Virus record (IMG/VR): IMGVR_UViG_3300033273_000208
Span: 1 to 64,000 of that record
DNA: 64,000 nt
From: a virus
Reading direction: 5' to 3' (one strand)
Shown here: in pieces, positions 1 through 64,000 of the stretch
Layout of the letters: each line of letters starts with the position of its first letter
Numbering within the stretch: position 1 is the stretch's first letter
Translations under genes and position numbers: made by a program
The notes under the pieces: generated by a model
Seen by the model: the letters and a program-made list of their open reading frames with translations, nothing else
Databases searched by the model: none
What the model was told of the DNA's origin: nothing

Positions 1-95
1 TCTATATTGAGTATGTTGTTGAGGGTGAAGGTTGTCCCTTTGATCCTAATCAGGAACCTATTCTTCCTAGAGATGCAATGCCCGAGTGGAACTAA
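1..95 (+). CDS. C-terminal end of an upstream protein (partial)
   Basis: The frame that starts at base 3 is open from the left edge to a TAA at 93-95 and gives a 30-residue tail ending in PEWN. It includes GCPFDP, loosely like the CPF motifs of the DUF6065-type proteins downstream, but the piece is too short to assign. It ends 3 bases before the halogenase start, so it probably belongs to the same transcript. Confidence 0.6.
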   Translation, partial: YIEYVVEGEGCPFDPNQEPILPRDAMPEWN

Positions 96-98
96 TGT

Positions 99-1652
99 AT
101 GATTCGTAATGTTGTTATTGTAGGCGGTGGATCTGCTGGTTGGATGACCGCCGCTGCCTTTGAAAGATTACTTCCCGAATACAACGTAACCCTCGTAGAA
201 TCCCCCGATGTTCCTATTGTTGGAGTCGGGGAATCTACTTTAGGGCATATAAACATGTACCTACATCTGCTTGGTTTGGAAGACCATGAGTGGATGAAAG
301 AATGCGATGCAACATACAAAGTTGGAATCAGATTCACAGATTTCTATAAGAAAGACAATACGCACTGGGATTATCCTTTTGTGGATCCTGATCCTGATGC
401 TCTCCCTGGGGGACTTGTATCTTTCTGGGCGCTTCGCAATGCTTATCCTGAGAAATACTCACACCCTAATACATTCGCCCGAATGGTGAATGGAAACACA
501 TGGTTGATGGAAGAGAATCGTATTGACGATTCAGGTATGTGGGGTGAGATGGATAAGGACTATTCGTACCACATGGATGCGATTAAGTTCGGACAATGGT
601 TGAAGAATAATGTGTGTAAGAACGTCAAGTACGTTCAAGGGCATGTTATGGATGCGGATTATGATGAGCAAGGTAACATCACACGATTGTTCCTTGATAC
701 CAATGTATTCCTAAAAGCAGATCTATTCATTGACTGCACAGGGTTTGGATCTGTGCTGCTGGAAGGATTGATGGGTGTCAAGCACAAGTCTTTCAATCAT
801 ATCCTCCCAAATAATAAGGCAACGGTCTGTCGTGTGCCACATACAGATCCAGAAACTCAGGTGCAGAACTATACAAATGGTACAGCACTTGCTAATGGAT
901 GGGTCTGGAACATTCCACTGTGGAATAGAACTGGCACAGGATATGTGTGGTGCGATAAGTATCAGAATGAGTCGGGTGCTGAGCAGGAGTTTAGATCACA
1001 TCTTGCCAATCATTTTGATAATGTTCCTGACGACTTCCGCGTCATTGATATACGCAATGGCAAGCATGAGAAAGCATGGCATAAGAATGTTGTTGCAGTT
1101 GGACTGTCCTATGGTTTCATTGAACCATTAGAATCCACGGGATTGTTGACAGTACATGAACAGATTCGTCGTTTGATTGAGACACTGCAGACCAGAGATG
1201 GTGTAGTTAGTAGCATTGAGAAGTCAATGTTTAACTGTGCTGCTGATCGTGAGATTGATGGATTTGCCACATTTGTGTCCTGGCACTATGCCTTCTCGCT
1301 ACGTCGTGACTCTGCTTACTGGAGATATGTAACCGAGGATATTGATTACAGTATGGATCATTTCCATATGAACAGTCCTGAGGACAATACATTTAGAGAA
1401 CTTACAACATACAAGTATAGAACTCATGAGTTTCCTGCATCAATGGCAGGTACATTGTATGTACTAGCGGGGAATGATTTTGCTACACTTAGAGGACAGG
1501 GGCAAACTGTTACCTACGAAAAGTTTGGTGAACCTCCCCTAGATAGACTGTCGGGAGACGTTGACAGCAAGATGTATTGTGCATTAGAATACGTCAAGAA
1601 ACTACCTACATCCTATGAGTATTTGAGGGACACCATCTATGCTGTTTCGTAA
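99..1652 (+). CDS. Flavin-dependent tryptophan halogenase-like protein
   Basis: 517 aa, the usual length for flavin-dependent halogenases (PrnA/RebH family), which use FADH2, O2 and halide to make hypohalous acid that a lysine hands to the substrate. Visible: the N-terminal FAD-binding GGGSAGW (residues 9-15), GVGEST (42-47), a lysine in TYKVGIRF (Lys74) at the place of the PrnA catalytic Lys79, and the diagnostic WxWxIP motif as WVWNIP (267-272). These halogenases recur in cyanophage genomes, but their substrate is unknown to me. It overlaps the next gene by 14 bases and heads a chain of oxygenase genes, suggesting joint work on one substrate. The enzyme class is secure; tryptophan as substrate is only a family name. 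Confidence 0.92.
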   Translation: MIRNVVIVGGGSAGWMTAAAFERLLPEYNVTLVESPDVPIVGVGESTLGHINMYLHLLGLEDHEWMKECDATYKVGIRFTDFYKKDNTHWDYPFVDPDPDALPGGLVSFWALRNAYPEKYSHPNTFARMVNGNTWLMEENRIDDSGMWGEMDKDYSYHMDAIKFGQWLKNNVCKNVKYVQGHVMDADYDEQGNITRLFLDTNVFLKADLFIDCTGFGSVLLEGLMGVKHKSFNHILPNNKATVCRVPHTDPETQVQNYTNGTALANGWVWNIPLWNRTGTGYVWCDKYQNESGAEQEFRSHLANHFDNVPDDFRVIDIRNGKHEKAWHKNVVAVGLSYGFIEPLESTGLLTVHEQIRRLIETLQTRDGVVSSIEKSMFNCAADREIDGFATFVSWHYAFSLRRDSAYWRYVTEDIDYSMDHFHMNSPEDNTFRELTTYKYRTHEFPASMAGTLYVLAGNDFATLRGQGQTVTYEKFGEPPLDRLSGDVDSKMYCALEYVKKLPTSYEYLRDTIYAVS

Positions 1653-2361
1653 GAGAAAACCAATCAGGTTCTGGTCTACTCTCCCAGGTGTAAAAGATTG
1701 CCATCCAGTGTATCCAGCACAAAAACTGGAACGCAAGATGTCAAAGTGCCCGTTTGCTGCTATACAACAACATGCCAGCAAATGTCCCGCATTGAAACAA
1801 TGGAGTAACACGGGGTTTATTATTCCTGCTCCGTGTGACTTCGTTATCATTACAAATGGTGATGGTGTTAGTGTAGACTGGAGAGCACCCACACTACTTG
1901 ATACTGACAATGGATTTATTACGATCCACGATGATAAACAAGCAAAGGCATCTGCACCACCTCACAGTATGGATTCTGTGATCAAGGTGGGTACAACCTG
2001 GAGAGTGTGGGCACCAAAAGATATTGTGTTTATTCAGTCCCCTGTGCTATATAATGGTGAGGAGCGATTCACTGCAGCAAGTGGTATCTTTGATCCCACA
2101 AGAGTTCCACAACTCAATGCACAACTTTATTGGCATGTGTTAGAGGGTGAAACACTCATTGAGGCAGGCACACCGCTATTCCAAGTCACGCCGATTCTTC
2201 GCAAATCGCTTAGACAGTGGGACTATGTAGTCGAGGATGCTAATGAGTCTGATCGTATGTTTGAAGCAGCGATCTCATATAATATGACATCTAAGTTTGA
2301 TATAGATACACATAGCGTCCTTAAAAACAACCAAAAGATTATTGAGAACCGTCATGTCTGA
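1639..2361 (+). CDS. DUF6065-type protein
   Basis: 240 aa. It resembles the DUF6065 proteins found beside cyanophage halogenases and oxygenases: a KCPFAA then KCPALKQW cysteine-rich start (residues about 35-55), a central beta-rich part, and GTPLFQVTPI near residue 180. Catalytic function is unknown. The start overlaps the halogenase end by 14 bases. A divergent relative lies at 4009-4698 with the same order of elements (CP..W, PxDL/PCDF, GTPxFxV), so the two look like paralogues flanking two oxygenases. The family name is from memory and moderately certain. Confidence 0.75.
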   Translation: MLFRKRKPIRFWSTLPGVKDCHPVYPAQKLERKMSKCPFAAIQQHASKCPALKQWSNTGFIIPAPCDFVIITNGDGVSVDWRAPTLLDTDNGFITIHDDKQAKASAPPHSMDSVIKVGTTWRVWAPKDIVFIQSPVLYNGEERFTAASGIFDPTRVPQLNAQLYWHVLEGETLIEAGTPLFQVTPILRKSLRQWDYVVEDANESDRMFEAAISYNMTSKFDIDTHSVLKNNQKIIENRHV

Positions 2362-2740
2362 AGAACTTAAAGTATCGTCAATCGATGAACTGTGGGATAA
2401 TCTTGCACTGCAACATGCAGTCAAGATGGAACAATACCTTGTAGCAAAGGGTCAACTGGATACTACTCTCGCCAACCCTGCATCTCAGGGAAGTGGTGTA
2501 ACATTTGATGTTAGAGAGATCCAAAACCTCCGCGATGAACTTGTAAAGATTGAGGGTGCACTTGATGCTCTGAATATCATCTACACTCAGATCGAGGGTA
2601 AAGAAGCACGCACATATGTTGTTGAACCTGAGCGTCCAGCACCTAAGGTAAGAGCGAAGGGTAGGGGCAAAGAGAAGTATAAAGAACTGGAAGAATGGGC
2701 ACCTGATGTTGATGCACCGAAGGTTGATACTGGTCTCTGA
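2354..2740 (+). CDS. Hypothetical protein, partly coiled coil
   Basis: 128 aa from the ATG at 2354; a TTG four codons earlier is possible but less likely. The middle (about residues 50-85, LRDELVKIEGALDALNIIY) looks like an amphipathic helix. The tail is charged and basic (KVRAKGRGKEKYKELEEW). It overlaps the preceding stop by 8 bases, and its TGA overlaps the next ATG (TGATGA), so translation is probably coupled. No function recognised. Confidence 0.75.
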   Translation: MSEELKVSSIDELWDNLALQHAVKMEQYLVAKGQLDTTLANPASQGSGVTFDVREIQNLRDELVKIEGALDALNIIYTQIEGKEARTYVVEPERPAPKVRAKGRGKEKYKELEEWAPDVDAPKVDTGL

Positions 2741-3399
2741 TGATAAATCAAGAGTTGTTATTTCCTACACCAGTATGGTGGCAGGACTTTGATCTAGATA
2801 CTGATAAACTAACTGAAATATGCCATCAGATTCGTGATGAATATGATGGTCAAGTTAGATCTAATGTCGGTGGATATCAGTCCACCGATTTCAATGGCGA
2901 ACATCTATTGACTGTGGATGATGAGTTGGGTAAACTTGCTCATCATCTTACAGACATGGCAACACAAATCTACGCACGATTTGAACCACAAGGTACACAT
3001 GTGGAGATGGCAAATCTGTGGATCAATATCAATCATGGCAATGATTACAACGTCACTCATACACATCCTGGTTCTGTAATCTCTGGTGCATACTATGTCA
3101 CTGCACCAGAAGACGCAGGTAAGATTGTATTTGTGAAGGATCATTCCTCTGCATTTAACTTCTCATCCGTGGGAACAATGCAAGACTTTGCTGAAGGTGA
3201 AGGTGAACCATGGTTGTGGAATCAGTTTATGTACCCACCTGTCAAGAATAGGTGTATAATGTTCCCAGCATGGTTGCCACACAAAGTTGAACGAAGTGAG
3301 ACACAATCAGAACGTATCTCTATCTCATTCAACTTTGTACCTAGACAAAACCATGATAAAATAATGTATGGCATCGTGAAGAAGATCAATGAATGTTGA
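2740..3399 (+). CDS. 2OG-Fe(II) oxygenase (TIGR02466-like)
   Basis: 219 aa. It starts with LFPTPVW, the hallmark opening of this phage oxygenase family. The jelly-roll core shows THTHPGSVISGAYYV (His107/His109) and, after PAWLPH, His181 as the distal iron ligand, then ERISISFNF with Arg192 placed to bind 2-oxoglutarate. The family uses 2OG and O2 to hydroxylate; the substrate cannot be read from sequence. It is one of eight oxygenase or cupin genes in the first 18 kb and is closely related to the next gene, which it overlaps by 11 bases. Confidence 0.85.
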   Translation: MINQELLFPTPVWWQDFDLDTDKLTEICHQIRDEYDGQVRSNVGGYQSTDFNGEHLLTVDDELGKLAHHLTDMATQIYARFEPQGTHVEMANLWININHGNDYNVTHTHPGSVISGAYYVTAPEDAGKIVFVKDHSSAFNFSSVGTMQDFAEGEGEPWLWNQFMYPPVKNRCIMFPAWLPHKVERSETQSERISISFNFVPRQNHDKIMYGIVKKINEC

Positions 3400-4018
3400 G
3401 TTTCTATTTCCCACACCAGTCTGGCATGAAGATGTAAATGTCGATACTGATGCTCTGATTGCATTCAGTGTTGATTATATGCGTACTGAAAAGATGAACG
3501 GTGGTAGTTATGAATCAATGAATCTAACTGGTGCACAGTTCAGAGACAGTAAGTGTGTTGTTGGTAGTTTTGTCAGACAGGTGGAGGATAAAGCAAACGA
3601 AGCATTCCAAGACTTTGGTCCTCTGAATACATATGCTGAGATGGATCACTTCTGGTTCATTACAGTTCCACCAGGAGATCGTATGGCATTACATACACAT
3701 CCTGGTGCTGTGTTGTCTGGTGTTGTATATTTGTATGTGCCTGAAGGTGATGCTGGTTCTATCACTATTCGTAGAGATGCAACAACATCTCACCTCTATC
3801 ATTCTCTAGGTGCATACACATCATGCAATCGTGGTGACAATCAAATCACCTGGGACTCTGTAAGTTACGCTCCTGTTGTCAACAAGATGGTGCTATTTCC
3901 TGCATGGCAACCACACTCAGTATCACAGAATAATACTGACCAGGATCGCATCTCAGTGTCTTTTAACTTCCGCGTTAAGGAAGGTGTATACCCACATACG
4001 TCAAGATTATGGCAGTAG
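3389..4018 (+). CDS. 2OG-Fe(II) oxygenase (TIGR02466-like)
   Basis: 209 aa, a tandem relative of the preceding gene. LFPTPVW is at residues 6-12, LHTHPGAVLSGVVYL carries the proximal His102/His104, LFPAWQPHSV gives His176, and DRISVSFNF gives Arg187. Sequence outside these motifs is quite different from its neighbour, which suggests an old duplication and different substrates. It overlaps both neighbours by about 10 bases. Confidence 0.85.
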   Translation: MNVEFLFPTPVWHEDVNVDTDALIAFSVDYMRTEKMNGGSYESMNLTGAQFRDSKCVVGSFVRQVEDKANEAFQDFGPLNTYAEMDHFWFITVPPGDRMALHTHPGAVLSGVVYLYVPEGDAGSITIRRDATTSHLYHSLGAYTSCNRGDNQITWDSVSYAPVVNKMVLFPAWQPHSVSQNNTDQDRISVSFNFRVKEGVYPHTSRLWQ

Positions 4019-4698
4019 ATATTTACTATACATCTGTGATTCCCAAGAGGGACGAAGACTATCAGATCCCTACATTTGCTGAGGACTATGAAGTTCCACC
4101 TACACCAGCATACAATGATGGGATAAAGTCTCATGACCACATGTATTGTCCTGCCCACAAAGAGTGGTGTAAGAATAGATGGACATTTTACATGCCATTT
4201 GATCTACACTTCAGGTGCGACAGTGAGCATCGCATGATAGGATCAGATACACATGGAGATAAACTACAAGATCTGATTTCGATTGGTCCTAACTGGTGGG
4301 ATGATGAACTGCCAGAGATAGAAATCACATACAACACATTGTTTTGGACTAATACAAAGAATGTGTGGTTAGAGTATACTGGTCATCCCACAGTTGCACA
4401 GCATGGATTCAGTGTGGTGCCTGGCACATTTCCTATGTCATCATGGATGAGATCATTGCCTATTGGTGTCATTCCACATCGTATTGATGACGGTATCTAT
4501 ATCAAACGTGGTACACCCATCTTTCATGTTAAGTTTGTGCGAGGTAAAGATACATTCAAACTCACTAGAAAGACACCACCACCTGATAAGATAGTGCAAA
4601 TCAAACAGGATCAAGAACTCAAACACTGGGCACCATTTAAGTCCTGGGATCTAATCATGAAGAGGGAATCTAAATGTCCATTTCGTATCCGTTTCTGA
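4009..4698 (+). CDS. DUF6065-like protein, divergent paralogue
   Basis: 229 aa. Elements shared with the protein at 1639-2361: YCPAHKEWC near residue 45, a YMPFDLHF segment, a VVPGTFP region, and KRGTPIFHVKFV near residue 170. It ends in KCPFRIRF, recalling the KCPF that begins the other protein. Catalytic role unknown. It overlaps the oxygenase upstream by 10 bases and the cupin gene downstream by 25 bases. Paralogy is my inference from motif order and needs an alignment. Confidence 0.65.
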   Translation: MAVDIYYTSVIPKRDEDYQIPTFAEDYEVPPTPAYNDGIKSHDHMYCPAHKEWCKNRWTFYMPFDLHFRCDSEHRMIGSDTHGDKLQDLISIGPNWWDDELPEIEITYNTLFWTNTKNVWLEYTGHPTVAQHGFSVVPGTFPMSSWMRSLPIGVIPHRIDDGIYIKRGTPIFHVKFVRGKDTFKLTRKTPPPDKIVQIKQDQELKHWAPFKSWDLIMKRESKCPFRIRF

Positions 4699-5366
4699 AC
4701 CGTGAGCATTACGTCTGTGGTGACACACCGTTGTTATTCAAGGGTGTATGTGATGCACCTATACTCTATGTGGACTGGGAAGATGTTGAGCACTGCTTAA
4801 ACAATCCCTGGGAGTATAACATTGAGATTCTTGACAGCAATAACATCAAAGTTCCTATGCCCACTGTTCCTCACCCGTGGCATGGTAACTGGCATCCAGA
4901 CAAGAAAGTTATCATGGATCTTGTCAATGATAACCACACATTTGTGATTGCTAAGTATGGTCATCATAATGTTCATGTTAATGCATTGCTGCGTAGGATT
5001 GAGGATGCATTTGATGTAGCATGTGATGCACACATTTATGGTGCATTAGGTGGTGCAAGTTCATTCAAGATTCATTGGGATCAACCAGCAAACTTCATCA
5101 TGCAAATACATGGTGAGACACATTGGACAGTATATAATGAACGGTGTAGTACACTTGTCAAATATACTGGATTCCCCTATAATCCTAGTGAGGATGAAGT
5201 AACACCTGCAATCGATACGGTACTACAACCTGGAGACATGTTGTATATACCATCACGTTGTTATCATTGTGCTTGTCCTGATCAAGAACGACTGTCCCTA
5301 AGTATTCCTTGTTGGCATGATCCTGAGAACAAACCAGACAGAAATCAATACACACTTGATCTCTGA
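4674..5366 (+). CDS. Cupin/JmjC-type Fe(II) oxygenase
   Basis: 230 aa. The metal site of the cupin_4/JmjC fold is visible: FKIHWDQPANFIMQIHG with His134 and Asp136 (HxD), and LQPGDMLYIPSRCYHCA with His198. Members hydroxylate proteins (often histidine or arginine of ribosomal proteins) or small molecules with 2OG. It differs from the jelly-roll TIGR02466 type nearby, so the cluster combines at least two oxygenase architectures. The N-terminal 60 residues have no recognised motif. It overlaps the next frame by about 50 bases. Confidence 0.8.
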   Translation: MSISYPFLNREHYVCGDTPLLFKGVCDAPILYVDWEDVEHCLNNPWEYNIEILDSNNIKVPMPTVPHPWHGNWHPDKKVIMDLVNDNHTFVIAKYGHHNVHVNALLRRIEDAFDVACDAHIYGALGGASSFKIHWDQPANFIMQIHGETHWTVYNERCSTLVKYTGFPYNPSEDEVTPAIDTVLQPGDMLYIPSRCYHCACPDQERLSLSIPCWHDPENKPDRNQYTLDL

Positions 5367-5853
5367 TGTAGCAACAAAAGAGATTGAACGTATAGTTACT
5401 GCTCCTGAGTTTCCCTGGTTTTATATACCTGATGCCACGGATCTTGTGCCTTCTGGTGGTGGTGCATTCATGCATCTATTGAAGATGGACTATGAGGTAC
5501 GATCACCATATTATGATCTATTTCATCTAGAGATCTGTAACTTTGCAAATCTCTATGGATATAGTCATGAGGATATATACCGTGCACGATTGGGTTTATT
5601 GTATCCCACCAAGAAGAAACATAACAAACCACATGTAGACTTCACTGATCCACATGATGTGATGTTGTGGTATATAACCAGTAACGATAAAGCACCCACA
5701 TTATTCTTCAATGACAGACTTGAAGAGATTCATCGTGTAGAATGTAGGCAGGGTCGTGTTGTGCATTTCCCTGGACATATGCTACACGCTTCAACACCAC
5801 CCAAGGATGGTATTCGTGTCGTTCTAAATGTAAATCTGAAGAGGTCAGTATGA
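5317..5853 (+). CDS. 2OG-Fe(II) oxygenase
   Basis: 178 aa with a classical HxD...H...R set: KPHVDFTD (His106, Asp108), GHMLHAS (His157) and GIRVVLNV (Arg167). This is the prolyl-4-hydroxylase-like phage form, not the LFPTPVW type. The ATG at 5317 gives a 50-base overlap with the cupin gene; a TTG at 5356 would shorten this to 11 bases. The stop overlaps the next ATG (ATGA). Confidence 0.8.
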   Translation: MILRTNQTEINTHLISDVATKEIERIVTAPEFPWFYIPDATDLVPSGGGAFMHLLKMDYEVRSPYYDLFHLEICNFANLYGYSHEDIYRARLGLLYPTKKKHNKPHVDFTDPHDVMLWYITSNDKAPTLFFNDRLEEIHRVECRQGRVVHFPGHMLHASTPPKDGIRVVLNVNLKRSV

Positions 5854-6359
5854 TTACACAATGGTTTGATAGATCTAAGGGCGAGTGGCATTCACACCGC
5901 AGATATTTGTATGGTGAGAGTGCAGAACTCATGACCAGTGAACTACTCGTTGGTGACCTGAATGATGTTGAGAAAGCAGTCATTCCAGAAGATCTCAACA
6001 GTGACTATTATGTAAAGTTTGGATGGCAAACTGTTAAATATAGTTCAGGTGAACCTGCTTCATCTGGTGAGATGCTTGTCGGAATCAATAGTAAGGATGG
6101 GAAGATGTATCGCTCTCAAGGATACATGACCTCCAATCCCACCATGACTGATGTAACTATGATTGATGAGGATACTATCCTCTTTGATACGGAGTATGGA
6201 AAACAAAGATTTCGTGAAGAGATTCGACTCCTACACAATGACTCGGTAAGATTACGACAGACGATTGGTTTCAAGGGCAACCGTGTGACTATCGTCGGTC
6301 AATACTACGAAACTCGTAAGGAGAACGAGACCGATGTTCCTCAAGTCAGCACCACTTAG
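5850..6359 (+). CDS. CpcS/CpeS-like phycobiliprotein lyase
   Basis: 169 aa, the length of CpcS/CpeS bilin lyases, which have a lipocalin fold and attach phycobilins to cysteines of phycobiliproteins. Visible family features: an N-terminal WFDRSKGEWHSHRRYLYG (residues 5-22), a YRSQGY strand, the acidic ILFDTEYGKQRFREEI stretch (110-125) matching the TEYE..S..ERFWF region of CpcS, then VRLRQTIG and VGQYYETR. Bilin-related genes are known in cyanophages, and this one suggests a host with phycobilisomes or phycoerythrin. It is embedded in the oxygenase chain. The active-site arginine and tryptophan positions need structural alignment; another lipocalin-like role is possible. Confidence 0.7.
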   Translation: MITQWFDRSKGEWHSHRRYLYGESAELMTSELLVGDLNDVEKAVIPEDLNSDYYVKFGWQTVKYSSGEPASSGEMLVGINSKDGKMYRSQGYMTSNPTMTDVTMIDEDTILFDTEYGKQRFREEIRLLHNDSVRLRQTIGFKGNRVTIVGQYYETRKENETDVPQVSTT

Positions 6360-6501
6360 CAAAGAGGCGAAAGGATTGCTCAAGAGAGCAATGTTATTGT
6401 TACTCTCTGACCTCTATAAGAGGCAGGGAGACATCAGTCCCAGACAACGTGATACAATACATGAGATTGTTACTACATTACATCTTGAACCCGAAGCATG
6501 A
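6334..6501 (+). CDS. Small hypothetical protein
   Basis: 55 aa (MFLKSAPLSKEAKGL...). It overlaps the lyase end by 26 bases and shares ATGA with the next start, which fills an otherwise empty 138-base gap and fits the coupled layout. Predicted helical and basic. Function unknown. Confidence 0.6.
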   Translation: MFLKSAPLSKEAKGLLKRAMLLLLSDLYKRQGDISPRQRDTIHEIVTTLHLEPEA

Positions 6502-7106
6502 CTGTTTTCCCTATATTCTCCACACCTGTTTATGTTGACACCTATGATATTCCACAAGATGAAATAGATCTAATCAAACAGGAAGAATATAAGGATTATC
6601 CAAAGCGTGCAGATGGTATGCAGTCAGTGGATACACAACTCCTCAAGAGGTATCCGCGTCTGCATCACATCTGTCTGGGTCATATTGCCCACTATGCTCA
6701 CAATGTCCTCGCTATTGATGATCGAGTGACATGTGAGATTGTGTGTTCATGGGTCAACAAACACCGTCCTGGTGAGAGAGCAAACAGGCATGGACATACC
6801 AATAGTATGTTCACAGGTTGCCTGTATCTTGACGTGCCCGATGATAGTGGTAACATCATCTTTGAAGCATCATATAATCATGCCACATGGAACACAGGTA
6901 CACTCGAACCAGCAACATGGGAGGATAACATACTCAACTCACGCATCTGGCAGATTGTACCTGAGCGTGGCATGATTGTATGCTTCCCTGCACATGTAGA
7001 CCACTACACAGGATACAATGAGTCTACACAAGATAGATACTCATTAGGATTCAATGTAATGATGAAAGGTGACTTTAGTGCACCTACACGAGATTTGGTG
7101 TTATGA
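6498..7106 (+). CDS. 2OG-Fe(II) oxygenase (TIGR02466-like)
   Basis: 202 aa. It opens with FPIFSTPVYV. The iron site is RHGHTNSMFTGCLYL (His98/His100) with His169 in FPAHVDHYTG, and DRYSLGFNV carries Arg180. It is more closely related to the next gene than to the pair at 2.7-4.0 kb; both have long spacers before the HxH and a CEIVCSW / ARHHCSW strand. Substrate unknown. Confidence 0.85.
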   Translation: MTVFPIFSTPVYVDTYDIPQDEIDLIKQEEYKDYPKRADGMQSVDTQLLKRYPRLHHICLGHIAHYAHNVLAIDDRVTCEIVCSWVNKHRPGERANRHGHTNSMFTGCLYLDVPDDSGNIIFEASYNHATWNTGTLEPATWEDNILNSRIWQIVPERGMIVCFPAHVDHYTGYNESTQDRYSLGFNVMMKGDFSAPTRDLVL

Positions 7107-7735
7107 ACTTAGGTGAATACGATAGATCAGTCTTTCCACTGTTTAACAATCCACTCTATGTGTCTCGCAATGCTCCACTGTCTGCAGAGATAGTGGAATA
7201 TGTTGTTAATCAGGAGTATTATTCTGACCCACAAGAGAAGAATGGTGAGAATACTTCCAACCAAAGACTATTAGATGGATGCCCAGAGTTAAAGGCATTG
7301 GTTGAGAGACATCTGAATCACTATTTGTATAACATACTGTGCTTTGATAGGAAATATGTAGCACGTCATCATTGTTCGTGGGCAACTAGACACAAGACAG
7401 GTCATTCTGCTCACAAACATACACATTGCAACTCAATGTATAGTGGTGTGATATACATAAAAACGCCACCTAAATGTGGGGATATATTGTTTCACGCTGA
7501 TTGCAATCGTGACACATATACAACACCAGCAATGAGACCTGATATTGTTGAGCACAATATCTACAACTCAGCGTGTTGGTCTATACCTGCTGAAGAGGCA
7601 TTGATATTACTGTTTCCATCAACTGTGGAGCATAGTGTTGAACCCAACCGAAGTCTGTCGGATCGGTATAGTGTTGCGTTCAACTATTGGTTGCATGGAC
7701 AGTACGGCGACTGTACCAATAGGTTGACTATATGA
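7103..7735 (+). CDS. 2OG-Fe(II) oxygenase (TIGR02466-like)
   Basis: 210 aa, a tandem relative of the previous gene. FPLFNNPLYV is at residues 11-20, HKHTHCNSMYSGVIYI gives His106/His108, FPSTVEHSV gives His177, and DRYSVAFNYW gives Arg188. ATGA overlaps occur at both ends. The two tandem pairs (2.7-4.0 kb and 6.5-7.7 kb) suggest repeated expansion of the family in this genome. Confidence 0.85.
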   Translation: MNLGEYDRSVFPLFNNPLYVSRNAPLSAEIVEYVVNQEYYSDPQEKNGENTSNQRLLDGCPELKALVERHLNHYLYNILCFDRKYVARHHCSWATRHKTGHSAHKHTHCNSMYSGVIYIKTPPKCGDILFHADCNRDTYTTPAMRPDIVEHNIYNSACWSIPAEEALILLFPSTVEHSVEPNRSLSDRYSVAFNYWLHGQYGDCTNRLTI

Positions 7736-8067
7736 CGACACCTCTGCTAATCTCAGAGTCAGTTCCACTGGAGATCAGGAACATCATGAAGTCATTGGAG
7801 ATTGGATCACCTATCCGATATGATGGAATGGAAGGACATGTGTGCTTCGTTTGTGATTCCTACATTTCTATGTGCTTCCGTGAGTATGAACATGGTGACA
7901 AATCTGCTCGACATCCAACAACCAAGTGTTGTGTACTTATCTTTCAAGAGTTCTGGGATGAGATCGAGATTGACGACACCCACTTCTATAATAAGAAGGC
8001 ATACAATGGACTGATCCATGAACATCCTGGCAACGATATGCTACCCGAAGGAGAGCGCCCCAAATGA
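7732..8067 (+). CDS. Hypothetical protein
   Basis: 111 aa, acidic, with a compact beta-rich core (IGSPIRYDGMEGHVCFVCDSYISMCF). It starts in an ATGA overlap and ends in one with the next gene. It looks like a conserved cyanophage small protein; I do not recognise a function. Confidence 0.75.
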   Translation: MTTPLLISESVPLEIRNIMKSLEIGSPIRYDGMEGHVCFVCDSYISMCFREYEHGDKSARHPTTKCCVLIFQEFWDEIEIDDTHFYNKKAYNGLIHEHPGNDMLPEGERPK

Positions 8068-8213
8068 ATACCAAAAAAGACCCACAAAAATCAACCAACA
8101 ATCTCCCCTCTGTTTATGACATCAAACGCGAAGAAATACAACGTTATTTGGAAGAGACAGAAGAAGAAAGGGCATACTTCGACAGTTACAGCGACGTTCC
8201 TGACGCTAGTTGA
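8064..8213 (+). CDS. Small hypothetical protein
   Basis: 49 aa, strongly charged (VYDIKREEIQRYLEETEEE), one predicted helix. ATG at 8064 overlaps the previous TGA. Its last two thirds overlap the next gene in another frame. The acidic helix looks like a genuine small phage protein, but one of the two overlapping frames may not be expressed. Confidence 0.55.
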   Translation: MNTKKDPQKSTNNLPSVYDIKREEIQRYLEETEEERAYFDSYSDVPDAS

Positions 8214-8292
8214 TGCTATTGAGTGGGAAAAGCACCTCAAGAAGAGTGGCGTGACAGTTTGCGAAGTGCACCCCGTTTTCACCGACTGGTGA
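8116..8292 (+). CDS. Small hypothetical protein, out-of-frame overlap
   Basis: 58 aa. The shape KYNVIWKRQKKKG, then TFLTLVDAIEWEKHLKKSGV, then VEVxPxF-like VCEVHPVF fits a common cyanophage small-protein pattern (a strand, a DAIxWE helix, a closing strand). It overlaps the preceding gene by 98 bases in another frame, and the promoter box at 8251 lies inside it. Function unknown. Confidence 0.55.
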   Translation: MTSNAKKYNVIWKRQKKKGHTSTVTATFLTLVDAIEWEKHLKKSGVTVCEVHPVFTDW

Positions 8293-8308
8293 GGTGTGGT
8301 AGTATATT
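8251..8308 (+). promoter_or_regulatory. Promoter module (GTGACAGT box plus -10)
   Basis: GTGACAGT at 8251 is followed 52 bases later by a -10-like TATATT (8303-8308), and the helicase ATG lies 30 bases after the -10 start. The same box-to-(-10) spacing recurs at 12745, 13981 and 15966, which is why I call it a module. Confidence 0.6.
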
Positions 8309-8332
8309 ATTTCTGTTGAGCGATCCACATAC

Positions 8333-9571
8333 ATGACCGTTGTTCTTCGTCCTCACCAAGATCGTGCCCTTGCAGCAATGCAAGTCAACGATAAAGGTCA
8401 AGTCATTGTTCCTACTGGCGGTGGCAAGACTTTCATTATGATTCAGGATGCACTGCGTCAACTGCAGCAATCTTCCACGATTGTTGTTGTTGCTCCTCGC
8501 ATTCTGCTTGCTACTCAACTGTGTGATGAGTTCATGCAGTTTGTTGACAGCAAGTATGTGCATGTATGTCATGCTCACAGTGGTGAAACTCATTACTTTC
8601 ACTCTACCAAGAGCAGCAAGATTGCTCTCTTCAACAACACCGCTCGTGCTGCAGGTGAGTCCTGCATTATCTTCACCACCTATCATTCGCTGGGTCGTGT
8701 AGTTGATGCAGGCATCAATATCAGTGCAGTGTACTTTGACGAGGCACACAATAGTGTTGCTAAGTCTTTCTTCGCCAGCACCTTTGCCATCTCTGATGTT
8801 GCAGAGCGTTGCTACTTCTTCACTGCTACTCCTCGCATCTCGCACAAGCATGAGCGTGGAATGCACAATCGTGAGGTGTATGGTACTGTTATCGAGAATG
8901 TTTCTGCTTCGGAACTGATTGCTAACGGTAGCATCATTCCCCCTCAGATTGTGCCATTCAACACGGATAACTCTCGCAACAAGGTCAACGCTCACGTTGT
9001 TGACAGTAACACTGTGCAGGATATCATCGACAATCTCGATGAGACTGCTGCTGCTAAAGTGTTGGTTGCAGTGCCATCCAGTCGTGTGCTAGGTAACATG
9101 ATCGGTCAGACTGATCTACTCCAACAACTCAAGGATCGTGGTTACCATGTTCTCCACGTCACCAGCAAGTTCGGTGCCTATGTAGACGACAAGAAAGTCA
9201 ATCGTGAGGTGTTCTTTGACACTCTCACCGCCTGGGGTGCAGATCCCACCAAGAAGTTTGTTATCTTCCACTATTCTATTCTGTCGGAAGGTATCAACGT
9301 TCCTGGTCTCACCCATTGCATTCTTCTGCGTAATCTCAACGTTGTTGAGATGGCACAGACAATCGGTCGTGTTATTCGTCTACATAAAGACGACGCTGCT
9401 GCTATTCGCAGCGGTGAACTCACCCCTGGTAAGTTTGACTTTTATAGGAAACCTTTCGGTTATGTGACTGTCCCTGTGCATCGCACATACGGTAAGCAAG
9501 TGACCAAGCGACTGCAGAATGTAGTTGATGCTATCTTCGTGAAAGGCATTCCTCCTCTGTCCCTCGTCTAA
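8333..9571 (+). CDS. SF2 DEAH-type helicase (UvsW-like)
   Basis: 412 aa with a complete set of superfamily 2 motifs: Walker A PTGGGKT (27-33), DEAH (136-139), TATPR (164-168), motif V-like LSEGINVPG (317-325) and motif VI QTIGRVIRL (342-350). In T4-like phages this type is represented by UvsW, which unwinds branched DNA and R-loops and moves replication from origin to recombination mode. At 412 aa it lacks the extra N-terminal domain of T4 UvsW (about 500 aa), so it may be a second helicase or a restriction-subunit-like translocase. It has its own promoter module and is followed within 6 bases by the lysozyme gene. Confidence 0.85.
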   Translation: MTVVLRPHQDRALAAMQVNDKGQVIVPTGGGKTFIMIQDALRQLQQSSTIVVVAPRILLATQLCDEFMQFVDSKYVHVCHAHSGETHYFHSTKSSKIALFNNTARAAGESCIIFTTYHSLGRVVDAGINISAVYFDEAHNSVAKSFFASTFAISDVAERCYFFTATPRISHKHERGMHNREVYGTVIENVSASELIANGSIIPPQIVPFNTDNSRNKVNAHVVDSNTVQDIIDNLDETAAAKVLVAVPSSRVLGNMIGQTDLLQQLKDRGYHVLHVTSKFGAYVDDKKVNREVFFDTLTAWGADPTKKFVIFHYSILSEGINVPGLTHCILLRNLNVVEMAQTIGRVIRLHKDDAAAIRSGELTPGKFDFYRKPFGYVTVPVHRTYGKQVTKRLQNVVDAIFVKGIPPLSLV

Positions 9572-9576
9572 ATCTA

Positions 9577-10068
9577 ATGCTTTACGATCAACCACCTGCA
9601 CCTGTATATCAGTGCGTTCAGTGTACTCCTGCCGAGCAGAAAACTCTAGCGTTTCTGCAAGATCGGGGTATTGTGAACAAGAATGCTCTCGCTACTGTGA
9701 TGGGTAACATCAAACAGGAGAGCAACTTTAACCCTCTCGTTTGTGAGGGTGGGGCAAACACTGGTTATCAGCGTTGCACTCGTGGAGGATTTGGTCTCAT
9801 TCAGTGGACTACGGAAGCAAGATACCTGGGTCTGGGTCGTTTCTGCAGGAAGAATAGTTGCAACGTCAACTCTCTTGAGGGACAACTGCGGTACATGTGG
9901 AATGAACAACAGTTCCAAACTCTCATTCCTAAGTTAAAGACACCAGGCAAAACCATCCCACAATATATGAATGACTCATGGTATTGGTTAGGGTGGGGTA
10001 TCCATGGCAATCGTACCCACTATGCATATCAATACCATCGAAAGATGGAACTGAAATATGTAATGTGA
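9577..10068 (+). CDS. Phage tail-type lysozyme
   Basis: 163 aa, fitting the phage tail lysozyme domain: NALATVMGNIKQESNFNP with probable catalytic Glu48, and GFGLIQWTTEARY (residues 71-83), the conserved GxxQW element. Such domains cut peptidoglycan from the tail tip, but this one stands alone, with no signal peptide and no tail domain, next to a helicase and far from the virion genes. It could be the endolysin or an injected virion enzyme. Six cysteines are present. A strong terminator follows. Confidence 0.8.
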   Translation: MLYDQPPAPVYQCVQCTPAEQKTLAFLQDRGIVNKNALATVMGNIKQESNFNPLVCEGGANTGYQRCTRGGFGLIQWTTEARYLGLGRFCRKNSCNVNSLEGQLRYMWNEQQFQTLIPKLKTPGKTIPQYMNDSWYWLGWGIHGNRTHYAYQYHRKMELKYVM

Positions 10069-10086
10069 CAATCCAATAACCTTCAC

Positions 10087-10113
10087 ACGGGGCAGCGTTG
10101 CTGCCCCGTTTCT
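10087..10113 (+). terminator. Intrinsic terminator
   Basis: A perfect 10-bp inverted repeat (ACGGGGCAGC with its complement) around a 3-base loop, followed by a short T-rich run. It closes the helicase-lysozyme unit just before the EcoRI-like gene. Confidence 0.85.
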
Positions 10114-10118
10114 GTGTG

Positions 10119-10124
10119 TATAAT
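10119..10124 (+). promoter_or_regulatory. -10 element of the EcoRI-like gene
   Basis: A consensus TATAAT 10 bases after the terminator hairpin, 31 bases before the ATG at 10150. That distance matches the 30-31 bases seen at the other promoter modules. A GTGACA lies 54 bases upstream at 10065, close to the 52-base spacing of the module, but only six bases match. Confidence 0.6.
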
Positions 10125-10149
10125 GAAGAGGTCCAAACGACACAAGACA

Positions 10150-10665
10150 ATGGCAGGCGGCATTCAGAAAGGCATGGTTGCTACTGATGCACATGCACGC
10201 AAACTTGACAACCAATGTAAAGTCCTCAAAGAGGAGATTGCAGACGTTTTGCAATACACTGGTGTGACATTACAGAAAAAACTGAAGAAGAATCAAATCC
10301 CTGGTGGTAAGGGTGCTTGCGAACCTGATGGTGGCGCATGGTTCTACAAAGGCAAACTGATTGCAGTGTTTGAAGGTAAGAAACAGCAGGACGCTGGTAA
10401 TGCTATCGAACGCTGGTTCAAGAACAACTACATCTGCCGCAAGATTAACCCTGATGTGTCATACGTCACCTTTGCAATCGGTGATGGTGCATACTCTGAT
10501 GGTGTGATCGGTAAGGCACTCAACGTTGCACATCTTGATGGGTTTGATACATATAATGCTGGTGGCAACTCTTGCTTCTTTAACACTCAAGGTTTTACAA
10601 AAGAAGAGATCCGTGCTATCATGATTAAAGTCCTTGCAGAGCGTATTCAGAATGAGGATAGTTGA
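10150..10665 (+). CDS. EcoRI-like type II restriction endonuclease
   Basis: 171 aa from ATG 10150. A PD-(D/E)xK nuclease core is visible: EPDGG (Asp60), FEGKKQ (Glu75, Lys77, Gln79), then DAGNAIERWFKN (81-92). In EcoRI (277 aa) the same blocks read PDGG with Asp91, EAKHQ with Glu111, Lys113 and Gln115, and AGNAIER with Asn141, Glu144 and Arg145. GNAxER is the motif by which EcoRI and MunI recognise the central AATT. The phage enzyme is about 100 residues shorter: the insertion between ExK and GNAIER is gone, as is most of the C-terminal part. No methyltransferase gene is visible. It has its own promoter after a terminator. It ends inside the next gene (14-base overlap). The fold is very likely; AATT cutting is a strong inference. 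Confidence 0.85.
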   Translation: MAGGIQKGMVATDAHARKLDNQCKVLKEEIADVLQYTGVTLQKKLKKNQIPGGKGACEPDGGAWFYKGKLIAVFEGKKQQDAGNAIERWFKNNYICRKINPDVSYVTFAIGDGAYSDGVIGKALNVAHLDGFDTYNAGGNSCFFNTQGFTKEEIRAIMIKVLAERIQNEDS

Positions 10666-11221
10666 CAACTACTTTCCACAATGGATGGTGGATAAGAATG
10701 CAGAAGAGTTCCAACTTATACCCGTAACTTATACCAACTCACCCTACGGTCAGTATGAAGTGAGTCGGTTCTTTGGTCAGTTACTTATCGATGAGGAGCG
10801 ATGGATTGCACCTATCGCCCCTCATTGGTTTGTGGACTATTTGCATATGTGTGTATGCAATGATCTCTTGTTGGACTATAAAATCCAAAAACTTGATCGC
10901 TGCCTGCTGAACGTGCAAACACCTGGGCAGAACGCCCAAAGTCACACGGATTGGGATGTTCTAAAGGAAAGCGACAGAATCAGTGGTCTGTATTACATCA
11001 GAGGCGATGGTGACACTCTATTTGTTAATGAACAGGGTGATACTATGAGTGTTGAGTGCAAACCAGGGCGATTAGTGCTGTTTGACAGTACAATATGGCA
11101 TGAGGGTTGTCCTCCTGTGAGTGAACCTATTCGATACACTCTCGGGTATGTCTGGAAGTGTGCCAGTCCACTCTCTGTCCACGATCCCCAGGATTTGTGC
11201 AACCCTGTGCCTATACTATGA
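10652..11221 (+). CDS. 2OG-Fe(II) oxygenase
   Basis: 189 aa from ATG 10652. HxD...H...R set: SHTDWD (His98, Asp100), TIWHEG (His150) and IRYTLGYVW (Arg161), with GRLVLFDS before the distal histidine as in phage prolyl-hydroxylase-like proteins. It overlaps the endonuclease gene by 14 bases and so shares its transcript. Substrate unknown. Confidence 0.82.
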   Translation: MRIVDNYFPQWMVDKNAEEFQLIPVTYTNSPYGQYEVSRFFGQLLIDEERWIAPIAPHWFVDYLHMCVCNDLLLDYKIQKLDRCLLNVQTPGQNAQSHTDWDVLKESDRISGLYYIRGDGDTLFVNEQGDTMSVECKPGRLVLFDSTIWHEGCPPVSEPIRYTLGYVWKCASPLSVHDPQDLCNPVPIL

Positions 11222-11243
11222 GGGTACCAAACAAGGACACCAA

Positions 11244-11426: not shown

Positions 11427-11433
11427 TAGAATA

Positions 11434-11467
11434 TGGGGAAATCATTAAGAATGTCCTGATTTCCCCA
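11434..11467 (+). terminator. Terminator-like hairpin
   Basis: GGGGAAATCA pairs perfectly with TGATTTCCCC across a 12-base loop, with one more flanking T-A pair. The T-tract after it is weak (CTTTC), so it may be a leaky terminator or an mRNA end-protecting structure. It separates the endonuclease unit from the small-gene cluster. Confidence 0.6.
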
Positions 11468-11476
11468 CTTTCATGC

Positions 11477-11484: not shown

Positions 11485-11505
11485 TATTAACTTCGCAAGA
11501 TAAGC

Positions 11506-52379: not shown

Positions 52380-52382
52380 TAA

Positions 52383-54242: not shown

Positions 54243-54244
54243 CC

Positions 54245-54252
54245 TATAAATA
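54245..54252 (+). promoter_or_regulatory. T4-type late promoter
   Basis: A perfect TATAAATA, 23 bases before the gp8 ATG at 54275 and 3 bases after the previous stop. The best late promoter in the window. Confidence 0.85.
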
Positions 54253-54274
54253 AAGGGAAGGGTAAAACAGCATA

Positions 54275-55810: not shown

Positions 55811-55811
55811 A

Positions 55812-58800: not shown

Positions 58801-61800
58801 TGATCATTATCTTTGATTACTTCCTGCATGAGCAGACTGGTGATTATTTCTCTGCACAATCTTACACAGGTATTCCTTTCAAGGAAATCCCTAACTACAA
58901 ACTTGACGGTAGTATCAACTTCCTGGTTGACCAGATTGACTTCCGTCCTGCAGTTGGTGAGCAAGCAGAAGGTTCGGGTACGGTAGGCAACCCCTACTAT
59001 GTGAACTGTACCTCTCTTGACTTCGACTCCCGTGTATTCTCTACGCAGAACAATGCTGCTGGTGGATCCACAATCTTCGATATCATGCGTGTAGAGACAG
59101 CATTCCGTGCTGACTACTCCTGGTATCAACCCAGACTTGACCACATCTATCTGGGTCACAATAACGAAATCATCGTTGCTCAGGGTAAACCTGGGGATGA
59201 TCTTCTTCCTCCCGACAAGGTTGAGAATGCCATGTTGCTTGCAACTATGGAACTCAAACCATATGTCTACAATCCTGAGCGTGACGTAATCATCAGCCCT
59301 GAGCAGATTCGTCGCTTCACGATGAAGGACATTGGTGACCTTGAGGCACGTCTTGCACAAGTTGAATACTACACCTCCCTGTCTCTGCTTGAAGTTCAGG
59401 CAGACAACACCAAGTCCTACGATGCTAACGGTCTTGATAGATTCAAGAACGGTTATGTTGTGGATGACTTCACCGATCATACAGTTGGTGATGTTCTGAG
59501 TCCTGACTACAAGTGCTCCTTGGACTTCAGAGAAGGTATTCTCCGTCCGTCTCACTACACAACTAACGTTGCTCTTGAGTGGAACGAGACTTCCTCTAGC
59601 AGTATTGTCAAGCACGAAGCAAACGTTCTGACACTTCCATACACCGAGGAAGTTATCGTTGAGCAACCATATGCTTCCCGTCAAGAGAACGTTAACCCGT
59701 TCAACGTGTTTACATTCATTGGTCGTATCGACCTCCTGCCGTCTTCTGACGACTGGATCGACACCAAGCGTCTGCCTGCAAGAGTTGAGAACGTCGAAGG
59801 TGACTTCTCTGCAGTTGCTAGAGACCTGAACATCGACCAGAACGGTTTCGCTCCTATTCAGTGGGGTTCTTGGCAGACCAACTGGACTGGTGAAACACTA
59901 CAATCCAGAAACAGATTCCTGTCTAGATCTGGTAGATATGGTGTTGGTCGTCAGTTGGGTCGTGCTGGTCACGGTCAGCGTCGTCAAGGTCTCTTCTACC
60001 TGCACGAACGTCGTACCTATCGTGTTGTTAATAACCAGACACGTCAAGGTGTGAGAACTCGTGTTGTTCCTCGTGTTGATCGCAAGTCTCTGGGTGACAG
60101 CATTCTGTCTCAGACAGCAATCCCCTGGATTCGTTCCAGAAACGTGGGTTACAAGGTTTCTCGTATGAAACCCAATACTCGTTTCTATGCATTCTTCGAC
60201 AACGTGAATGTAAACAACTACATGATGCCTAAGATCATCGAGTTGGTGAAGAACTCTTCTGCAGACCCCAATACAAACGAAACACCGTTTGTTGTTGGTG
60301 AGACTGTTGTTGGTTCTACATCTGGTTGCCGTTTGAAAGTTGCTAACCCGAATGATGGTGGTCAGTTCAACCCCTATACTGGCACATCCTCCCCGCTGCC
60401 CGAGTCTTATGCATCGCAGACAGATATCCTAAACATTGACGTTACTGCTCTGGCAGAAACCAAGAACCCTGATTACTACGGCAACATTGCTGTCGGTGAG
60501 GTCCTTGTCGGTCAAACCTCTGGTGCTCGTGCTGTCGTCAAGGATCGTCGTCTGATCTCCAACAACGTTGGTGAGATTGCTGGTACTCTGTTTATTCCAA
60601 ACCCAAACGAGGATGCAAACCCCCGTTTCGCAACAGGTACTCGTACTTTCCGTTTTACAACGAATGCCGATAACAGCAAACTGCCAGGCACCGTTGACTC
60701 TTCTGCTGAAACAACTTACGAAGCAAGAGGTGTTCTGAACACTGTCCAAGAAAACATCCTAGCAGTTCGTAACGCTGAGATTGTTCGTGACACGGTTTCG
60801 AGTACAAGAAACGTTATCTCTACAAGAACAGAGACACGTCAGATTGGTTGGTATGACCCTCTGGCACAATCCTTCATCCTCGACGAAGAAGGTGGTATGT
60901 TCCTGAACTCGGTTGACATCTTCTTTGCAACCAAGGACGCGAACATTCCCATCTCTATGCAGATTCGTACCATGGAGAATGGTTATCCGACTGGCGTTAT
61001 TTTGCCGTTCTCGGATATCACACTCAATCCCTCCCAGGTAGAAACATCTGAGAACGCTGCTATTGCAACCAAGTTCACATTCCGCGCACCTGTTTACATC
61101 AAGCAGTCCACAGAATACTGTTTTGTTCTGCTGTCCGACTCCAACGAATACAAGGTTTGGATCTCCAGAATGGGTGACGTTGATGTCTCTGGTACAAGAA
61201 CGATCTCTGAGCAACCGTATGCTGGTGTTCTGTTCAAGTCTCAGAACGCATCTACCTGGACCGCCGACCAGTATGAAGACCTGAAGTTCCGCATCAACCG
61301 CTGCATCTTCGGTCCTACATCTGGTACTGCAGTCTTCAATAACTGCACTCTGGGTAAGGGTAATGGTGGTGTTCACAATCTCGTTGAGAACCCGATCCAA
61401 ACTCTCAAACCCAAACAGATTATTGATCTTCCTGTCGGATTTGCTGAGTCGTTCACCGTTGGTGCTCGTTTGATTCAGGATCCCTCCAATGCAGCAGGTA
61501 CCATTGTCGAATATGACACCACTGGTTCTATTCCAAGACTGACCCTTAATGATCTTGAAGGCACAATCGCAACTGGTTTCCTCCAGCAAGGTGGCGGTAT
61601 CTTCAACGTGTTCAAGTCCTCTCAGTCACTGGTAACCATCACAACATCTGTGGTTCAGAACGGTGCATTCCAAGCAGGTCAAGTCATTACTAATGGTGGT
61701 GATGCTGAAGCAACCGTGGTTTCTTTCGACGAAAACACAGGGATTATTGAAGCAAACTTCTGTAAGGGTACCTTCACTGATGCTGACACAATCAGCAATA

Positions 61801-63167: not shown

Positions 63168-63230
63168 TACTTAAAGCTATATCTGTTCTTCTGAACCCTT
63201 ACAGTGTTATTCTAATCAGATTATTAGATT

Positions 63231-63491
63231 ATGTCAAGTCTTGATCCATATGAAGAAGGATATATTCCCGTTGAAGGTAGAGACAACCTTTTTCGGGATC
63301 CTTACTCAAAAGCGATTGTCAATACAGACAAATCGGAGTACGCTAAATACATGGATGCTGTAAAGCGCCGAGAGTCTCAAACAAACAAAGTTGACTCTTT
63401 ACAAAAGGAGGTTTCTGATCTAAAATCAGACATCCAGTATATGAAAACCTTACTAATGAAACTTGCAAAGGAGGACAACGATGCCCGCTGA
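63231..63491 (+). CDS. Small coiled-coil protein
   Basis: 86 aa. An N-terminal DPYEEGYIPVEGRDNLFRDP motif and a C-terminal coiled coil (LQKEVSDLKSDIQYMKTLLMKL, residues about 57-78). Small proteins of this type follow structural genes in many cyanophages; maybe a fibre chaperone. A GGAGG for the next gene lies in its end. Confidence 0.75.
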   Translation: MSSLDPYEEGYIPVEGRDNLFRDPYSKAIVNTDKSEYAKYMDAVKRRESQTNKVDSLQKEVSDLKSDIQYMKTLLMKLAKEDNDAR

Positions 63492-63687
63492 AGTGACCGA
63501 AACTATGGAACAGAGTGAACTGCTCGCTAACTTTCGTGAACGTTACACCAAACTTCTCGAAACAAACAAAGAACTTACTCAGCAAATCAAGAATAATGAG
63601 GCACAAGCACTGAAACTGCTTGGAGCAATCGAAACCCTAGAGTATTTGGGACAAGAAAGTGAAACCGCTGAAACCCCCGAAGAATGA
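63481..63687 (+). CDS. Small coiled-coil protein
   Basis: 68 aa from ATG 63481, chosen for the strong AAGGAGG 7 bases upstream. LLANFRERYTKLLETNKELT, then KNNEAQALKLLGAIETLEYL is one long helical stretch. Coupled to the previous gene (11-base overlap). Ends right before a terminator. Confidence 0.75.
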   Translation: MPAEVTETMEQSELLANFRERYTKLLETNKELTQQIKNNEAQALKLLGAIETLEYLGQESETAETPEE

Positions 63688-63692
63688 TACAG

Positions 63693-63716
63693 AGAGTCCT
63701 TCGGGACTCTTTTTTT
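63693..63716 (+). terminator. Strong intrinsic terminator
   Basis: AGAGTCC and GGACTCT around a TTCG tetraloop, followed by a run of at least six T. The best rho-independent terminator in the window. It ends the late transcript that begins before gp8. Confidence 0.92.
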
Positions 63717-63720
63717 CTGG

Positions 63721-63728
63721 CATAAATA
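63721..63728 (+). promoter_or_regulatory. T4-type late promoter
   Basis: CATAAATA, one base from TATAAATA, directly after the terminator and 41 bases before ATG 63769. Confidence 0.75.
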
Positions 63729-63768
63729 ACTAGAAGGCAAGGTACCGCTGGCACTATCTTAATAAGCA

Positions 63769-64000
63769 ATGGCAAATAGAATCCAACTAAGACGTGACGG
63801 TGCTCAGCAGTGGGCAAACGTCAACCCAATCCTCGCTCAGGGTGAACTCGGAATCGAGATCGACACTTCGCGTATTAAGATTGGTGATGGTGTTACACCC
63901 TGGAACTCGTTGAAATATGAGCGACCAATCGAGACTGAATCGAACACTGCAAATACGCTCGTCAAGCGTGATGCTGACGGTAACTTCTCTGCAGGTGCGA
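63769..64000 (+). CDS. Tail-fibre protein, N-terminal part (partial)
   Basis: 77 aa visible, open to the right edge. MANRIQLRRDGAQQWANVNP, then LAQGELGIEIDTSRIKIGDGVTPWNSL is the short fibre-attachment domain found at the start of many phage fibre and tropism-determinant proteins (Mtd N-terminal type). What follows is cut off. Confidence 0.8.
   Translation, partial: MANRIQLRRDGAQQWANVNPILAQGELGIEIDTSRIKIGDGVTPWNSLKYERPIETESNTANTLVKRDADGNFSAGA

Follow-up and report, generated by a model that had tools for sequence, protein, structure and literature searches.

The window analysed here, a stretch of 64,000 nucleotides covering positions 1 to 64,000 of the record IMGVR_UViG_3300033273_000208 (IMG/VR) of a virus that infects marine cyanobacteria, carries a gene for a predicted restriction endonuclease of the EcoRI fold (Table 1) and contains no copy of the four-base word AATT. 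An AATT core is shared by the type II endonucleases EcoRI, MunI and Tsp509I. The phage gene product belongs to phrog_2400, a family without assigned function in PHROGs. Its open reading frame (ORF) opens at the GTG in position 10114, the ATG codons at 10123 and 10150 being likelier starts. The residues D62, E77 and K79 of the putative catalytic motif are invariant in all 19 family members aligned (drawn from 28 sequences, the rest being near-duplicates or locus L005; L numbers denote loci throughout). The GNAIER motif is invariant in the same 19 proteins, and variants of it occur in a wider set: GNAVER (L146, L149), GNANER (L194) and GNACER (L350). EcoRI has the same GNAIER motif at residues 140–145, which contact the AATT core.

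Table 1. Features of the window discussed in the text (positions are those of the 64,000-nucleotide stretch).
Feature	Position	Strand	Remark
AATT-free (also CCGG-free) sequence	1..64000	.	AATT is a palindrome, hence missing on both strands
Helicase, T4-GC 36 type	8333..9571	+	Annotated as helicase in relatives
phrog_512 protein, function unassigned	9577..10068	+	Between helicase and endonuclease
Predicted EcoRI-fold restriction endonuclease gene, phrog_2400	10114..10665	+	phrog_2400, E 1.2e-80
PD...EGK catalytic motif	P-D 10324-10329, E-G-K 10372-10380	+	Read in the sequence
GNAIER motif	10396..10413	+	Invariant in 19/19 aligned members
2OG-Fe(II) oxygenase	10634..11221	+	PF13640, E 2.9e-7; shares its first bases with the end of the endonuclease gene

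An AlphaFold2 model of the endonuclease built from the 19-member alignment (pLDDT 83, pTM 0.82) was structurally re-aligned to the 1000 chains ranked highest by Foldseek. The five top alignments are all to EcoRI (Z 13.7–14.0, 2.6–2.7 Å, 150–151 residues), the best having a Z of 14.0 at 2.7 Å over 151 residues with 16% identity, and the next Z is 9.0. The presence of an EcoRI-like enzyme with a GNAxER motif, claimed by a sequence-only reading of the window made before this analysis, is thus borne out. The protein resembles EcoRI in its predicted fold, its PD...ExK residues, its GNAIER motif and the inferred AATT core. It differs from EcoRI in its size (173–183 residues against 261 in EcoRI chains), in the four-base word without flanking bases that it probably reads, in being carried by a phage and in that no methyltransferase was found adjacent to its gene. 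No Pfam or NCBIfam family was matched by the protein, and a search for cellular homologues in genome contigs gave 65 pattern matches, none of which was confirmed. Single-base codon differences from the gene's nearest relative, L002, are synonymous in 24 cases and nonsynonymous in 5, and 4 further codons differ at several bases, always with a change of amino acid; this pattern points to purifying selection. An assignment as a homing or intron endonuclease (site of at least 12 bp, mobile intron) is disfavoured by the EcoRI fold and by the disappearance of a 4-bp word throughout the genome.

The claimed lack of AATT was verified by counting: the window has none, where 207 are expected from a second-order Markov model and 351 from base composition, in line with the few hundred guessed from reading the letters. 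The deficit extends to the whole 73,883-base record (G000; 0 against 232 expected). The statement that AATA, AATC and AATG are common everywhere holds for the window as a whole (240, 369 and 335 copies), but some individual kilobases have no AATA or no AATG. The avoidance is visible in codon choice, as had been noticed: in the 10 window genes examined, an Asn codon followed by T is AAC 119 times and never AAT, and an Ile codon preceded by A is ATC 120 times, ATA 4 times and ATT never. A compositional or codon bias, or an artefact of assembly or library construction, could be suspected because several palindromes are mildly low in the window. This explanation is refuted by the counts. Shuffling synonymous codons in 43 window genes (57,786 bases; 200 rounds, protein and codon usage kept) left 228±12 AATT, with a minimum of 199, against none observed, and other AT-rich words do occur in the window (TTAA 130, ATAT 314, TATA 212). 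AATT is also absent from a second phage, G001 (111,864 bases, 339 expected), which is 86.7% identical to G000 across 65.6 kb, whereas L171, which shares its IMG sample number (3300021960) with G001, has 15 copies in 7.2 kb. A third record, G002, matches G001 at 99.99% identity over 84.3 kb, represents the same phage and is not independent. Random placement of the 8,277 substitutions separating G000 from G001 created 158±12 AATT, at least 125 in each of 200 trials, and none is observed. This simulation kept the same base changes and ignored codons, so that it gives an order of magnitude only, and it is imperfect for control words (TTAA, 212 simulated against 136 and 152 observed; GATC, 344 against 381 and 380).

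The association between enzyme and missing word was examined across relatives. The sample comprised 27 loci with the enzyme gene plus the best 80 of 85, 71 loci around the neighbouring helicase, 44 with a TTAA-type nuclease (see below) and stretches of seven named cyanomyovirus genomes. Dereplication (90% identity across 30% or more of the shorter sequence) and removal of clusters under 8 kb gave 96 clusters, phage S-CREM2 standing outside them. AATT has a median observed/expected ratio of 0.37 where the enzyme is present (41 clusters) and of 0.90 where it is not (55 clusters, range 0.50–1.16; Mann-Whitney p 1.9e-13, a guide only because clusters are related by descent). TTAA, TATA, ATAT and GATC show no difference between the two groups and CATG differs slightly (p 0.047). 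Removing 17 enzyme-free clusters contributed by the search for the TTAA nuclease, possibly not all of them cyanophages, leaves 38 with a median of 0.89 (p 3e-11). The nearest enzyme-free relatives, a comparison already proposed with the sequence-only reading, are not comparably depleted: the observed/expected counts, written in this form hereafter, are 223/266 in S-WAM1 and 119/159 in S-SZBM1, and the ratios 0.82–0.85 in L031–L034, overall 0.75–0.85. Neither outcome named with that reading as refuting it, an AATT count close to expectation or equal depletion in all relatives lacking the enzyme, was observed. In the pooled carriers the depletion shows no preference for flanking bases (GAATTC 36/34.1), as expected of a 4-bp reader. 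A 6-bp specificity (GAATTC, CAATTG or RAATTY) of those carriers that keep AATT was rejected on the same ground.

Two other sources of selection on AATT bear on this contrast. A host type II system might cut AATT, the phage having shed the sites to escape, a frequent course in lytic phages, and its own enzyme being incidental. Site avoidance against host type II systems is reported as well documented (PMC6286503), but AATT loss tracks the enzyme gene across clusters and not the host strain. Phages of Synechococcus WH7803 differ in AATT (S-PM2 with 490/478 and S-BM3 with 93/124, both grown on this strain, are far less depleted than the enzyme-bearing S-RIM2 with 54/199, for whose species only some records name WH7803 as host), phages of WH8102 differ in TTAA (S-SSM5 190/221 in 40 kb, S-ShM2 0/586), the related S-WAM1 from Padilla Bay and S-SZBM1 from Shenzhen Bay are near normal in AATT, and a 21 kb piece of WH7803 DNA has AATT at expectation (26/26). 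The comparison within host strains covers isolated phages. We regard host-driven loss as quite improbable. Alternatively, site loss could defend against the AATT enzymes of co-infecting phages and not against the phage's own enzyme. AATT-type enzymes are common in this phage family and would be met in co-infection, and such a defence could act together with protection from the own enzyme. If competitors were the dominant cause, however, phages without the enzyme should be depleted as well, and their median is 0.90; there is thus only a small chance that this is the main explanation.

Most relatives pair the enzyme with a methyltransferase. A D12 adenine methyltransferase of one type lies in the locus of 33 of the 41 enzyme clusters. 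In S-RIM2 it is two genes on from the enzyme and annotated as DNA adenine methylase (LIS061010_059/_061), S-CREM2 has a homologue that its depositors named “restriction endonuclease EcoRI”, a DNA adenine methylase being encoded close by (gp11/gp8), and in L027 the EcoRI-fold enzyme and an adenine methyltransferase of the D12/Dam type are fused in a single ORF (1905-3320), the methyltransferase being 62% identical to the partner in S-RIM2. The 33 partnered clusters have AATT ratios of 0.07–0.95 (median 0.37); 24 are below 0.6 and none is at zero. The other eight form three separate clades among the partnered ones in the enzyme tree. Two of them are the window lineage, which has exactly zero AATT. 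Searches with PF02086, PF01555, PF13651 and PF05869 gave no match in G000, G001 and G002, which are incomplete, about one third of a typical genome of 175–185 kb being unsequenced in this lineage. Each of the five complete cyanomyovirus genomes searched has at least one D12 gene while these three records show none; the genome of the lineage is therefore partly unsampled.

A partner methyltransferase encoded in the unsequenced third would make the system an ordinary phage restriction-modification (R-M) pair with an unusually thorough loss of sites. Such an arrangement has a precedent in the 189.9 kb record of L176, where a methyltransferase of the partner type is found ~18 kb from the enzyme. 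It remains the case that 33 of 41 clusters have the partner in the enzyme locus and that methylation fails to explain zero out of several hundred sites, all partnered clusters having kept some. We consider a distant partner rather unlikely, but not negligibly so.

The reading that we favour, and hold to be likely from sequence and structural modelling, is that the phage encodes an EcoRI-fold enzyme cutting AATT, that its partner methyltransferase was lost and that an AATT-free genome now provides self-protection. The enzyme would be a site-specific endonuclease whose cleavage specificity, the four-base word AATT, we infer from the missing word and the predicted fold. Ancestors of the phage probably had an R-M pair whose modifying member was a D12 N6-adenine methyltransferase, the state of most relatives today. 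Even partnered phages tend toward site loss, and the process may have been completed in the window lineage, whose protection would now consist in a genome that never spells AATT. The thinning of AATT in most partnered relatives as well (for example 42/336 in G007) suggests that methylation protects incompletely and that sites were already being purged while the partner was still present, a sequence of events deduced from present-day genomes. A genome purged of the site and safe without methylation had been proposed by the sequence-only reading; the zero count and the lack of a methyltransferase in the sequenced part support it. An unpaired enzyme accounts well for the zero count of the lineage, but the lack of a partner holds for the sequenced part only.

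Several observations weigh against this interpretation. Six of the eight partner-less clusters keep AATT (L176 0.18, L178 0.44, L174 0.61, L180 0.63, L018 0.75, L021 0.82), so that a rule by which phages without a methyltransferase are purged is not clean and was rejected. L174, L176, L178 and L180 belong to one clade and L018 and L021 to another. The last two, fragments of 10.9 and 23.5 kb, combine an intact-looking enzyme gene with near-normal AATT. L176 has the distant methyltransferase mentioned above, and the other five are fragments of 9–62 kb. Some partnered clusters are nearly as depleted as the window lineage (L014 at 0.07; G007, whose 42 copies are spread over 80 kb), others with the enzyme are barely depleted (L197 0.95, L169 0.86, L201 0.84), and the cluster statistics are not phylogenetically independent. 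The unsequenced third could hold a distant methyltransferase. As to the enzyme itself, plain Foldseek returned no row at E ≤ 0.001 and EcoRI was not among the matches of phmmer and hmmsearch against PDB chains. EcoRI being undetectable by sequence profile, we claim an EcoRI fold and not orthology with EcoRI.

In a further 22 loci a methyltransferase of the partner type was found without phrog_2400 being seen in the locus, and their median AATT ratio of 0.46 first looked like counter-evidence, namely depletion without this enzyme. Three of these records (L326, L342, L351) match phrog_2400 weakly. Among six methyltransferase loci whose neighbours were read (L330, L337, L350, L356, L359, L361), L350 has a phrog_2400-like ORF, and three share, upstream of the methyltransferase, an ORF containing an ExK-like stretch (L356:4122-5000, L337:3023-3895, L361:4065-4937; AATT is 1/58 in L356) that is possibly a second family of AATT nucleases. 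The depletion at L330 and L359 is not explained by the neighbouring genes.

A second case of a missing word is found in the cultured phage S-ShM2 (GU071096; loci L229, L204, L227, L228 and L230). Its complete genome of 179,563 bases has TTAA at 0/586 and AATT at 903/1038, and it carries a PD-(D/E)xK-like nuclease beside the helicase (SShM2_059). One D12 gene, annotated dam, is present, and no match to PF01555, PF13651 or PF05869 was found. The nuclease family has an invariant HDR...EIK pattern. Its member in L067 (11230-11655), where TTAA is 0/35, directly follows the same helicase and is distinct from the EcoRI-fold enzyme. Clusters with homologues of the L067 gene at 70% identity or above (5 clusters) have a median TTAA ratio of 0.19 (range 0–0.56), compared to 0.89 in the 73 clusters without the nuclease (p 6.6e-7). 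Homologues of 38–70% identity are intermediate (8 clusters, 0.62) and beside more distant ones there is no depletion (10 clusters, 0.91). TCGA, and often GATC too, is depleted instead beside many distant homologues (L117, L119, L122–L124, L126, L131–L137, L139–L141), hinting at a changed specificity among distant members of the family. S-BM3 combines a homologue 81% identical with TTAA at 14/74 and an N6_N4 methyltransferase. The rule of an erased word may be general beyond AATT, as S-ShM2 suggests for TTAA.

Other words are missing from the window. CCGG, overlooked in the sequence-only reading, is absent where 86 copies are expected (123±10 after codon shuffling), and the four RGCY words (AGCT, GGCC, GGCT, AGCC) reach 50 of about 333 expected. 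Avoidance of CCGG and RGCY is common to cyanomyoviruses without the enzyme, whereas that of AATT is not. CCGG is at zero in 70 of 71 helicase loci (L029–L099; ~535 expected in all, one copy in L087), most of them without phrog_2400, and some phrog_2400 carriers keep it (L010 16/14, G007 81/85). Two cyanopodoviruses retain CCGG (P-SSP7 27/32, Syn5 184/195); RGCY is not depleted in Syn5, and P-SSP7 keeps most RGCY words with GGCC low (6/40). The loss of CCGG and RGCY in cyanomyoviruses is perhaps due to a core nuclease. In L031–L034 CATG is absent (0 of 53–76 expected in each) and a NUMOD4/HNH-like gene with a weak Pfam match (L032:19124-19933) is found only in that one near-identical group of six loci. 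In L054 a nuclease-like ORF (6523-8020) overlaps an N6_N4 methyltransferase and GATC, GTAC and GAAC, together GWWC, are depleted. L010 is depleted in TGCA and CGCA, suggesting YGCR, besides AATT.

The helicase upstream of the endonuclease gene has nuclease or R-M genes beside it in S-RIM2, S-ShM2 and L067 as well. The oxygenase gene, into which the endonuclease gene extends with its 3′ end, sits near the position held by the methyltransferase in most relatives. In the region 99-11221 several genes resembling 2OG-Fe(II) oxygenases come after one resembling tryptophan halogenases; the best PHROGs label of two ORFs (5317-5853 and 10634-11221) is “DNA endonuclease V”, while Pfam assigns the second of them to the oxygenases. 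A single ORF of 7,523 codons (26665-49236) probably encodes a structural protein.

Avoidance of recognition sites, R-M systems in phages and viral nucleases without a partner have all been described before. The closest systems are the phrog_2400 R-M pairs of S-RIM2 and S-CREM2, of the same phage family, whose enzymes are 71% and 60% identical to the one studied here. These phages keep a D12 methyltransferase near the enzyme and AATT sites in their genomes (54/199 in 40 kb of S-RIM2, 17/28 in 27.6 kb of S-CREM2), whereas the window lineage has zero AATT and no such gene in its sequenced part. Chloroviruses have site-specific endonucleases, presumably packaged, and degradation of host DNA starts within minutes; methyltransferases are described for these viruses and a site purge is not, as far as the account consulted goes (PMC7019647). 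The GATC R-M system of Marseillevirus could degrade the DNA of related viruses lacking it, and exclusion of competitors was proposed; there a methyltransferase is described and host DNA is reported not to be degraded (PMC7253447). HHPV4I, a viral modification-dependent endonuclease described as efficient only on fully methylated GATC, was suggested to exclude other viruses (PMC10101028), its virus presumably being protected by staying unmethylated. Complete loss of short palindromes was reported for genomes of non-temperate phages, the selecting enzyme in that account being the host's (PMC6286503), whereas here it is apparently the phage's own. None of the open-licence PMC matches listed reported that a cyanophage had lost AATT or TTAA in connection with a nuclease of its own, nor described a phage restriction enzyme with self-immunity by complete absence of its word.

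Freed from the need of a methylated genome, the enzyme could attack AATT-bearing DNA, that is, the host chromosome or co-infecting phages. AATT density is ~1.2 per kb in the WH7803 piece and about 4–12 per kb in enzyme-free cyanomyoviruses. Because the Synechococcus DNA examined is AATT-poor and these phages are AATT-rich and would be cut often, exclusion of competing phages seems a somewhat likelier use than breakdown of host DNA. A wider scheme, which could equally prove right or wrong, is a vocabulary code for self and non-self, in which every cyanomyovirus lineage encodes a nuclease for a particular short word and has purged its genome of it, so that co-infecting phages of a different vocabulary would be cut and the lineage's own DNA would be safe unmarked. 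The code would cover AATT here, TTAA in S-ShM2, perhaps CATG in L031–L034 and in part GWWC in L054. An R-M pair would be its entry state, a complete purge would allow loss of the methyltransferase, and the avoidance of CCGG and RGCY across the family may represent an earlier layer of this code.

Restriction enzymes are taught to be safe only beside a matching methyltransferase. The window lineage and S-ShM2 look like an alternative solution, in which the cutter is kept and the word deleted. If true, this would explain the presence of sequence-specific nucleases in phages without modified DNA, provide a mechanism for phage-phage exclusion in the sea, and make the specificity of a nuclease readable from the words missing in the genome that encodes it.

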